Positions 32,054 through 55,888 of a stretch of 64,000 nucleotides of DNA are shown piece after piece. The notes beneath the pieces were generated by a model, which was not told the DNA's origin, searched no databases, and saw only the letters and a program-made list of their open reading frames with translations. The position numbers and the translations under genes were made by a program. The stretch comes from Planctomycetia bacterium. Its GTDB lineage: Bacteria > Planctomycetota > Planctomycetia > Pirellulales > UBA1268. The DNA lies in contig BJHK01000006.1 of NCBI GenBank assembly GCA_014192425.1, positions 62,001 to 126,000 of the forward strand. Direction: 5' to 3'. Positions within the stretch are counted from its first letter, which is position 1. The number at the start of each line of letters is the position of its first letter.

Positions 32054-32788
32054 ATGTCGCTCTTGTCGGTCGAGGGATTGGTCAAGAACTACGGCCGGCG
32101 CCGGGTCGTGGACGGCGTGGATTTCCACGTCGAGGAGGGGGAGATCGTCGGCCTGCTGGGGCCGAACGGGGCCGGCAAGACGACCAGTTTCCGCATGACC
32201 TGCGGGATGGTGATCCCGGACGCCGGCCGCGTCCTCCTCGACGACGAGGAGATCACCGACTGGCCGATGTACCGGCGGGCCCGCGACGGCGGCATGGGCT
32301 ACCTGGCGCAGGAGCAGAGCGTGTTCCGCAAGCTGACCGTCGAGCAGAACCTGCTGGCGATCATGGAACTGGTGGGCATGCCGCCCAAGGAGCGGCGCCG
32401 GCGGTGCGAGGAATTGCTCGAGCAGTTCGCCATCACCAGGATCCGCAAGTCACGGGCCCACTACATTTCCGGCGGCGAGAAGCGGCGCCTGGAGATCGCC
32501 CGCTGCCTGGTCACCGAGCCGCGGATCATCCTCCTCGACGAGCCATTCACCGGGATCGACCCGGTCACGATCCACTCCATCCAGAAGATCATCCAGGGGC
32601 TGCGCGACGACGGGATCTCGATCCTGATCACCGACCACCGGGAGCGGGAGACGCTGGCGATCACCGATCGCAGCTACGTGATCCGGGCAGGCAAGGTGCT
32701 CTGCCACGGCAGTGCCGAGGAGGTGCTCTCCAATCCGGAGGCGAAGAAGTACTACTTCGGCGAGAGCCCGGGCGTGACGGCGGCCTAG
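32054..32788 (+). CDS. lptB: LPS export ABC transporter ATP-binding protein LptB
   Basis: The ATPase that powers lipopolysaccharide extraction from the inner membrane. The 244-aa protein has Walker A GPNGAGKTT (about residues 36-44), the Q-loop AQEQSVFRKLTV, signature ISGGEKRRLEIARCL, Walker B RIILLDEPFTGIDP and the ITDHRERETL switch histidine, all LptB-like. It follows lepB by about 50 bases. It ends with the three-hairpin repeat. Confidence 0.93.
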   Translation: MSLLSVEGLVKNYGRRRVVDGVDFHVEEGEIVGLLGPNGAGKTTSFRMTCGMVIPDAGRVLLDDEEITDWPMYRRARDGGMGYLAQEQSVFRKLTVEQNLLAIMELVGMPPKERRRRCEELLEQFAITRIRKSRAHYISGGEKRRLEIARCLVTEPRIILLDEPFTGIDPVTIHSIQKIIQGLRDDGISILITDHRERETLAITDRSYVIRAGKVLCHGSAEEVLSNPEAKKYYFGESPGVTAA

Positions 32789-32794
32789 CTGTCC

Positions 32795-32908
32795 GTGGAA
32801 AAAGCCGTCTCTGGCCTTTTTCCGCTTGGCCGACCGAGGGAAACCCCGAGGTTTTCCCTGGTCGGCAACCGCCGCATCGTGCGGCGGCAGACTTCTTCCA
32901 CAGCCTGC
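32795..32908 (+). repeat. Three-hairpin intergenic element, single copy after lptB
   Basis: Immediately after the lptB stop codon lie three consecutive hairpins: GGAAAAAGCC-GTCTCT-GGCCTTTTTCC (32797-32823), GCCGACC...GGTCGGC with AGGGAAACC...GGTTTTCCCT inside it (32829-32866), and CCGCCGCATCGTGCGGCGG (32869-32887). GTGGAA (32795-32800) and TTCCAC near 32900 could close the whole element. The same layout with conserved loops and altered stems recurs after glnA at 55.4 kb. It could be a terminator or structured RNA. Confidence 0.75.
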
Positions 32909-33180
32909 TAGGCCGAGCCGCGCATCGACAGGCTCTTGATGGTGAGCACCGCGCCGGCCGACATCAGTGCCAGGCCCAGCCAGCGGGGCGGGTGAATCAT
33001 CCTGCCGCCGGGGCTGGCCTGCCAGAGCCCCTGCGCGGGTGTTCCACGGTCGCCCAGTTGGGCCGAGACGAATCGGCTCGACCGCTCGTTGAGCGAAAAC
33101 GCGGGAACCATCCGGAACTGCATTCCGAGCAGGAACAGCAGCAGTCCGGCGAACAGCAGGTGATTGCGGCGGGGGAGCAT
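32908..33180 (-). CDS. Small predicted membrane protein
   Basis: A 90-aa protein with two membrane segments: HLLFAGLLLFLLGMQF near the N-terminus and WLGLALMSAGAVLTI near the C-terminus, with a polar loop (LNERSSRFVSAQLGDRG). The start MLPRRNHLL was chosen because it opens the hydrophobic segment; an upstream extension of 15 residues is low quality. Layout matches the protein at 16570-16812. It is convergent with lptB, and its stop touches the end of the three-hairpin element. Function unknown. Confidence 0.6.
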   Translation of the reverse strand: MLPRRNHLLFAGLLLFLLGMQFRMVPAFSLNERSSRFVSAQLGDRGTPAQGLWQASPGGRMIHPPRWLGLALMSAGAVLTIKSLSMRGSA

Positions 33181-33432
33181 GGGGCGTCTCGCGGGGCGGG
33201 AATCAGGCCCCTCGATACAGAGCATCGGTCGGCGCCGGGGGCAGGGCTGGAGCGGGCTTCCCGGGCAGCGGATTGCACGGACGATGACGGAGGCGCCGCC
33301 GGCCGGGAGGCGGGGGGCATGGCAAACTGGGAAGGCCGGAGGGGACCGTGGCGAAAATAACTGTCGAAGCGGTCGTGCCGATGACGATGATCGAAGGGCG
33401 TATCCGGCCCGAGGCCGAACCCCCTATTTGTG

Positions 33433-53950: not shown

Positions 53951-55363
53951 ATGAAGCCCCGTGAAGTGCTCGCGATGTGTCGCGAGAAGGAAGTCAAGGC
54001 CATCGACCTGCGGTTCACCGATTTTTTCGGTGCCTGGCAGCACTTCACCATCCCGGTCGGCAAGCTCGAAGAGGACGTCTTCGAGGACGGGCTCGGCTTC
54101 GACGGCTCGAGCATCCGTGGCTGGCAGGCGATCAACGAGAGCGACATGCTGCTCGTGCCGGTGCCCGGCAGCGCCTTCGTCGATCCCTTCGCCCAGATTC
54201 CCACGCTGGCGATGATCTGCATGATCCAGGACCCGATCAGCCGCGAGGACTATTCCCGCGACCCGCGCAACATCGCGCGCAAGGCGGTCAACTATCTGAA
54301 GAGCACCGGCATCGCCGACACCTGCTTCATCGGCCCGGAGGCGGAGTTCTTCGTGTTCGACGACGTGCGGTTCGACCAGAACGCGCACGAGGGCTACTAC
54401 CACCTCGATTCGCGGGAAGCGGAGTGGAACCGGGGCCGGGCCGAGGGGCCGAATCTCGGCTACAAGCTGCGGTTCAAGGAGGGGTACTTCCCCTGCCCCC
54501 CCGCCGACCAGCTCATGGACCTGCGCAACGAGATGATGCAGACCATGATCCAGTGCGGTATCGACGTCGAGGCCCAGCACCACGAGGTGGCCACGGCCGG
54601 CCAGTGCGAGATCGACATGCGGTTCCAGGAACTGGTGAAGATGGCCGACCAGATGTGCCTCTACAAGTACATCGTGCGCAACGTGGCCCGCCGCCACGGC
54701 CGCACCGTGACCTTCATGCCCAAGCCGCTGTACGGCGACAACGGCTCGGGCATGCACACCCACATCTCGCTCTGGAAGGAGGGGCATCCGTTGTTCGCCG
54801 GCAGTGGCTACGCCGGCCTCTCCGAGATGGCCCTGCACGCCATCGGCGGCATCCTCCGCCACGCGCCGGCGATCCTCGCGATCACGAACCCGACGACCAA
54901 CAGTTACAAGCGGCTCGTGCCCGGCTACGAGGCCCCGGTGAACCTCGCCTACTCGCAGCGCAACCGCTCCGCCAGCTGCCGGATCCCGATGTACTCGGCC
55001 AGTCCGAAGACGAAGCGGGTGGAGTTTCGCTGTCCCGACCCGACCTGCAATCCGTACCTCGCGTTCGCGGCCATCCTCATGGCGGCGATCGACGGCATCC
55101 AGAACAAGATTCATCCCGGCGACCCGCTCGACCGCGACATCTATGACATGCCGCCGGAGGAGCTGGCGAACGTGCCCAAGGCGCCCGGCTCGCTGGAGGA
55201 GGCGCTCGTCGCCATGGAGCGGGACGCCGACTTCCTGCTCCGCGGCGACGTGTTCACCGAGGACGTGATCGGCACGTGGCTGAAGTGGAAGCGCGAGCGG
55301 GAGATCGACGCGATGCGGCTCCGGCCGCATCCGTACGAGTTCTGCCTCTATTTTGATGCGTGA
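53951..55363 (+). CDS. glnA: Glutamine synthetase, type I
   Basis: Synthesises glutamine from glutamate and ammonium with ATP. At 470 aa it has the usual markers: [53 protein letters not shown], and the adenylylation-site region IYDMPPEEL with Tyr, consistent with GlnE control. A GAGGAG site lies before the ATG. The 3' end matters: its last four codons (TTT GAT GCG TGA) are also the first bases of the tandem three-hairpin repeat that continues downstream. Confidence 0.96.
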
Positions 55364-55681
55364 GAAGCCATCCCTGGCCTTCTCACGCAGCGCCCGGTGG
55401 GCAACGCCGAGGGTTGCCGCACCGGGCGGCGCCGCATCGTGCGGCGGTTTGATGCGTGAGAAGCCCTCCCTGGCCTTCTCACGCAGCGCCCGGCGGGCAA
55501 CGCCGAGGGTTGCCCACCGGGCGGCGCCGCATCGTGCGGCGGTTTGATGCGTGAGAAGCCATCCCTGGCCCTTTCCACGCAGCGGCCGGTGGGCAACGCC
55601 GAGGGTTGCCGCACCGGGCGGCGCCGCATCGTGCGGCGGTTTGATGCGTGAGAAGCCCTCCCTGGCCTGCGCTCACACGCA
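55352..55681 (+). repeat. Tandem three-hairpin array (about 3.4 copies of a 96-bp unit)
   Basis: Units start at 55352, 55448, 55543 and a partial at 55640. Each begins TTTGATGCGTGAGAAGCC and contains stem one GTGAGAAGCC/GGCCTTCTCAC (loop ATCCCT or CTCCCT), stem two CCCGGTGGGCAAC with loop GCCGAG, and GCCGCATCGTGCGGCGG. The third unit has a right arm changed to CCTTTCCAC. The first unit includes the last codons and stop of glnA, so the array grew from the glnA terminator region. It is related to the single element at 32795-32908. Confidence 0.9.
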
Positions 55682-55807: not shown

Positions 55808-55853
55808 GTTGCCGAGCGTTGCCGAGGGTCGCCGAGGGTCGCCGAGGGTCGCC
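55808..55853 (+). repeat. 10-bp direct repeats
   Basis: Four full units and a partial of a GTTGCCGAGC/GTCGCCGAGG motif in tandem with small differences, directly after the three-hairpin array and about 35 bases before the glycosyltransferase start. It could affect the spacing or translation initiation of that gene. Confidence 0.8.
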
Positions 55854-55888
55854 TTGACGCGGCGCGCGCGGCGGCGCGACCATATGGC

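Follow-up and report, generated by a model that had tools for sequence, protein, structure and literature searches.

Directly after lptB, in the 64,000-nt planctomycete stretch analysed here (contig BJHK01000006.1; hereafter the window), three consecutive hairpins follow one another, raising the question of whether they belong to that gene or to something else. An earlier note had described conserved loops and changed but paired stems, had taken this to suggest selection on RNA structure, and had offered a terminator or a small RNA among the possible functions. The hairpins lie exactly where they had been placed, and the similar layout reported after glnA was found as a tandem array (Table 1). 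The bounds of the element were instead drawn slightly short, since the right terminal repeat and the flanking CTAG sequences had been left out, and both its terminal inverted repeats (TIRs) and its mobility had been missed.

Table 1. Features of the element after lptB and of the array after glnA, in window coordinates.
Feature	Position	Strand	Basis and remarks
Left CTAG target-site duplication	32785-32788		Sequence; 32786-32788 is the TAG stop of lptB (32054-32788)
MITE-like mobile unit, 119 bp	32789-32907	+	Flank spacing, absence after lptB in relatives, nested copy
Left terminal inverted repeat, CTGTCCGTGGAAAAAG	32789-32804	+	Inverted-repeat detection, copies; overlaps 5' arm of H1
Hairpin 1 (H1)	32795-32825	+	Loop GTCTCT, family consensus HTCCHT; fold; 7 model pairs covary (E<0.05)
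Hairpin 2 (H2)	32829-32866	+	Loop with CCGAGG, consensus GCCRAGG; fold; 8 model pairs covary (E<0.05)
Hairpin 3 (H3)	32869-32887	+	Loop ATCGT, consensus ATCCN; fold; 1 pair covaries (E<0.05)
Right terminal inverted repeat, minus-strand reading CAGGCTGTGGAAGAAG	32892-32907	-	Same end as IS1182-like elements; no significant covariation
Right CTAG target-site duplication	32908-32911		Sequence and ORF list; TAG stop of convergent 105-aa gene 32908-33225 (-)
TIR-less tandem array of the three-hairpin unit	55352-55677	+	About 96-bp period, 3.5 copies; overlaps the end of glnA (stop 55361-55363) and continues 3'

The 119-nt unit is made up of the three strong hairpins and of a weaker fourth part corresponding to the right terminal repeat, where a weak fourth hairpin is possible in many copies. 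Folded as RNA, its plus strand gave -59.8 kcal/mol versus -40.1 for shuffled sequences (z = -5.4, with 0 of 200 shuffles folding as well), and its minus strand a z of -5.8. The loop of H2 in the lptB copy is centred around CCCCGAGG, and the pairing of H3 is poor in some relatives. No U-tract follows any hairpin of the element (0 intrinsic-terminator sites, defined as a GC hairpin with a U-tract) and no sigma-70-like promoter was found at it. Both the lptB element and the glnA array scored below the gathering threshold of every Rfam family, in agreement with the earlier view that they lie outside the named families.

Several lines of evidence indicate that the element is almost certainly a mobile unit. 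Its terminal inverted repeats (CTGTCCGTGGAAAAAG versus CAGRCTGTGGAWMAAG) are imperfect and about 16 bp long, as in MITEs, and it is bounded by CTNN 4-mers, whose spacing is 118-120 bp in 99 of the 107 copies with recognisable ends. The left and the right 4-mer are identical in 44 of these 107 copies, compared with 21.7 expected from shuffling and a maximum of 34 in 10,000 shuffles; when the left 4-mer is other than CTAG, an identical pair still occurs in 12 of 62 copies versus 3.1 expected. The flanking 4-bp repeats vary from copy to copy (CTAG, CTAA, CTCG, CTGG, CTGT), as target-site duplications do. At locus L130 one copy is nested in another, and once the insert and one CTAG are taken out, the host copy is whole again across the junction GGGTTTC-CTAG-GTCGAC; near-empty sites with 73-77% identity were found at L051 and L298. 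Tandem or mixed-orientation cassette clusters were also observed (L173 1586-2135, L022 3001-3505, L046 1537-1838 and L018 2891-3468), the last with copies inserted into or adjoining one another.

At lptB itself, the sequence could be read in 17 other genomes of the genus; none of them has the element, and in several lptB ends with GCCTAGG, namely the sequence expected before insertion. The lptB stop falls in the left CTAG and that of the convergent gene in the right one, an arrangement that would be expected if the two genes had once shared a single palindromic CTAG. The convergent gene is small, membrane-protein-like and conserved in three relatives (G001, G008, G011). The terminator or small RNA considered in the earlier note is not supported as something dedicated to lptB, the element being transposed, absent at lptB in relatives and devoid of both a U-tract and a sigma-70-like promoter.

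The element is by no means limited to the window. By blastn, 24 places were retrieved from its own genome, and a covariance model built from 14 copies (R1) gave 57 hits there at E<=0.01, including a few cases of one place read on both strands. Searching relatives with a covariance model, which had been proposed as a check along with a significance test of the covariation, returned many further copies: R1 detected the element in 21 of 21 other same-genus and in 14 of 15 other same-family genomes among 60 relatives, with 1 to at least 56 scored copies per relative carrying it. In genome G025, 181 matches to the left end (with at most 2 mismatches) were counted versus 14 for a reversed control pattern. 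A second model (R2), applied to 246 genomes of the order, was positive in 45 of 50 genomes of the family, with copy numbers between a few and about 180, and in none of the 196 genomes outside it. The named records with the element are planctomycete MAGs from freshwater, whose titles place them in Planctomycetaceae/Pirellulales. One copy (L344, RGTL01000119.1) lies in a contig that was assigned to a gammaproteobacterial MAG and is probably a planctomycete one put in the wrong bin.

Conservation of the loops alongside changed, still paired stems was confirmed in an alignment of 70 copies fitted to the structure and including the TIR-less subfamilies (A4). Pairs were formed in 91.1% of cells, versus 69.0% after shuffling and 36-46% with slid partners, and both sides had changed in 39 of the 40 pairs. 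A tree-aware null, which redistributes substitutions among the columns along the tree, left 18 column pairs of the structure-fitted alignment significant (E<0.05). Sixteen of them are predicted stem pairs, located in the three hairpins (Table 1) and never in that of the terminal repeat, and the remaining two are stacked inside H1 and H2. When the 90 TIR copies were aligned without fitting to the structure, stem pairs again made up most of the highest-ranking column pairs, but only 2 reached E<0.05, few independent changes having occurred within the TIR family alone. Loop identity in H1 and H2 was 0.79 and 0.85, versus 0.58 and 0.61 for the respective arms, with TCC occurring in 61 of the 70 H1 loops.

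The array after glnA represents a TIR-less form of the same unit, having GTGAGAAG/CTTCTCAC and CGCCCGG/CCGGGCG as stems. The cassette was also recovered from the orthologous site of G009, G014 and G013, and weakly from that of G018, and its stems show compensatory changes across species (GAGAAG/CTTCTC, GAACGG/CCGTTC and GAGCGG/CCGCTC; GCGTGAGAAG/CTTCTCACGC, GCGTGAACGG/CCGTTCACGC and GCGTGAGCGG/CCGCTCACGC). Other repeats were noted in the same region, namely four 10-bp repeats of the CGCCGAGGGTCGC type shortly past the array (window 55810-55854) and, 3' of glnA in several relatives (L404, L408, L418), a second repeat family with GC-rich palindromes (GGGGCTGCCCGTGCCCC...GAGCCGGCG).

In searching for a transposition partner, DDE transposases were collected and their flanks scanned for the ends of the element. 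An IS of genome G019 (L244), encoding a transposase of 448 aa at L244:832-2178, has a left end (CAGGCTGTGGATAAAG) matching the right end of the G025 copies at 16 of 16 positions and a degenerate right end. Relatives of its transposase were found in 11 of 60 genomes, and the IS1182-like IS of G019, G003, G031, G034 and G025 possess ends of the type CAGNCYGTGG..AAG, mostly adjoining CTAG or CTAA. The ends of these relatives include CTAG-CAGACCGTGGCCAAAG, CTTTGTCCACGGCCTG-CTAG and CCTAG-CAGGCTGTGGAAAAAG and, in another family, TTAG-CAGCCCGTTGATTTAG...CTAAATCAACGGGCTG-TTAG; the IS1182-like IS sharing the ends of the element are without the hairpin cassette. In Pfam the candidate transposase matches DUF772, DDE_Tnp_1_6 and DDE_Tnp_1, the first two linking it to the IS1182 family; its best NCBIfam match is indeed transpos_IS1182 (NF033551), although at 182.5 bits, under the cut-off of 270. 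No IS1182-like gene was found in the window's own genome, so that mobilisation there would be past or due to a lost or unassembled copy. On the basis of the shared ends, an IS1182-type element is very probably the partner, and an IS1182-like DDE transposase would have moved in trans the MITE form, 119 bp long with terminal repeats CWGNCYGTGGAWMAAG, into CTAG-type sites, duplicating 4 bp.

As other candidate movers, IS701 elements (DDE_5) were discarded, as they show CTAG duplications but have other ends (e.g. TACTACAGCGCTAAC) and are missing from most carriers; among the other DDE_Tnp_1 elements none had matching ends save the IS1182-like one. A distant hairpin element whose end reads CTAG-CAGTCCGTTGAAAAACGCCATCGTGG is found in genome G044 next to an IS701-type IS that has a CTAG end (L193 2790-2960), a possible sign that a remoter relative of the MITE exists in another family.

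The element is a MITE by every feature tested. Like the MITEs of DDE insertion sequences, it is short, non-coding and present in many copies, with TIRs, a target-site duplication and ends that correspond to those of a full-size IS found in relatives. Unlike them, it has as its interior a three-hairpin cassette, shared with TIR-less cassettes, in which the stems covary and the loops are conserved, and it is not a simple deletion derivative of an IS. No IS1182-linked MITE or planctomycete MITE of this type was found in a literature search, and a covarying structured interior of a MITE is not reported in the literature retrieved.

Copies of the element lie preferentially at gene ends and in one orientation. 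A left neighbour was called for 131 copies, and this upstream gene is in sense in 101 of them and in antisense in 30 (p 3.5e-10, an optimistic value, array copies being counted separately and shared copies not being independent); in the window's own genome the corresponding figures are 39 and 4. Sense copies lie at a median distance of 4 nt from the upstream gene, the commonest case being that of a stop codon inside the left CTNN. When CTAG is present on either side, the stop is in the left duplication in 19 copies and in the right one in 3 (p 0.0009). The target is also directional, since CTAA outnumbers TTAG 9:0 and CTGA outnumbers TCAG 6:0, and this could account for part of the sense bias. 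TIR-less cassettes have a like position 3' of genes. CTAG, CTAA and CTGA are common at gene ends, where they consist of a C followed by a stop codon, so that insertion would keep the protein intact while adding a folded tail to the transcript.

Taken together, these data are probably best explained by a three-hairpin 3'-UTR cassette existing in a fixed TIR-less form, as after glnA, and in a mobile MITE form spread by transposition. As to the molecule under selection, H1 and H2 of 90 copies contain 35 G.U pairs versus 51 A.C mismatches, and those of A4 27 versus 29; the signature of an RNA strand, namely G.U tolerated above A.C, was thus not seen. Pairing was 0.937 in sense and 0.931 in antisense copies. 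Since G.U pairs are not in excess and antisense copies are equally paired, the stems alone do not point to RNA as the selected molecule, and of the initial suggestion of a selected RNA structure it is the pairing constraint that the data support. The same two observations, and the near-perfect Watson-Crick stems, would fit a structure acting in DNA, either a cruciform or single-strand hairpins whose loops are recognised by a transposase or a host protein, serving the spread of the element with mRNA irrelevant to it; equal pairing in antisense indeed seems to place the constraint on the propagating lineage and not on single insertions. However, a need of this kind sits badly with IS1182-like IS that have the same ends and lack the cassette, with a TIR-less glnA cassette, common to the species at one place, that retains its hairpins, and with the strong sense bias 3' of stop codons, and we consider a purely DNA-level constraint possible but unlikely. 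Palindromes might also be maintained neutrally, if template switching copied one arm onto the other and left the stems paired but drifting without selection, as the double changes and the few G.U intermediates would suggest. Loops conserved where stems have diverged, including the recurrent TCC of H1, make drift alone insufficient, which renders this explanation improbable.

Two observations favour a role in the transcript, namely the bias towards sense orientation behind stop codons and the presence of a fixed cassette at glnA. Sense copies would most likely act at the 3' end of the mRNA, as structures that stop 3' exonucleases or promote termination, a role to which we give slightly under an even chance; any effect of the element on the transcript is one that we infer. 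That the hairpins form a family of intrinsic terminators accords with their position and orientation 3' of stop codons, but is very unlikely given that no U-run follows any of them, the stems of the other subfamilies being likewise without U-runs. Palindromic repeats at gene ends are also known as REP/BIME, for which mRNA stabilisation or termination has been proposed; a REP measures 20-40 bp and bears the tag GTAG or CGTC (Di Nocera et al. 2013, PMC3733652). The present element shares with them the location of hairpin repeats at gene 3' ends, and the genome does contain one Y1 transposase gene from which a RAYT tyrosine transposase could be supposed to move it; yet it is 119 bp long, with TIRs, 4-bp CTAG duplications and neither tag, and the Y1 gene is flanked by unrelated terminal repeats of its own, making a RAYT/REP origin, which we rejected, extremely unlikely. 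This only Y1 (RAYT-type) gene (L026:3790-4620, about G000:C4:109790-110620) is enclosed by long inverted repeats (AAAAGGTGCCAGCCACCAAATCTGGGTAA), resembling a TIRYT-like unit.

A further comparison concerns the sRNAs bound by CsrA/RsmA, such as RsmW (RF02809), which similarly consist of several hairpins whose loops are conserved and whose stems vary. In our element the GGA motif is carried by the antisense H1 and H3 loops and not by the strand of the preferred orientation. Membership of RsmW/CsrB was rejected, as cmscan gave E 0.004-2.6 and 24-30 bits versus a gathering score of 52, with hits on both strands of one locus. Weak RsmW matches were recorded on the antisense strand of three cassettes (L018 3339-3465 (+), window 55351-55453 (-) and L402 1415-1511 (+)). 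The csrA gene is present in all 60 genomes examined, usually with about 4 genes per family genome searched. Loops that read TCC on the sense strand and GGA on the other, together with the presence of csrA in all 60 genomes, are what would allow a balance with CsrA. The mobile cassette might be an RNA module, a 3'-UTR structure selected on one strand, whose loops would be recognised by an RNA-binding protein or through pairing with mRNA, and which transposition would have carried to stop codons, possibly in balance with CsrA. We hold this to be quite unlikely; if true, dozens to hundreds of genes per genome would be under common post-transcriptional control.

For the study of these bacteria, the finding is a warning that planctomycete intergenic hairpins showing covariation can turn out to be transposons and not dedicated RNA genes, and its copy-number and orientation data set offers a means to separate RNA-level from DNA-level constraint on hairpins. 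The element provides a clear case of a mobile repeat with a covariation-supported structure, placed at stop codons without protein damage and in a preferred orientation. The favoured reading, a 3'-UTR cassette in fixed and mobile forms, would show how transposition gave many genes of one bacterial lineage structured 3' ends at the same time.
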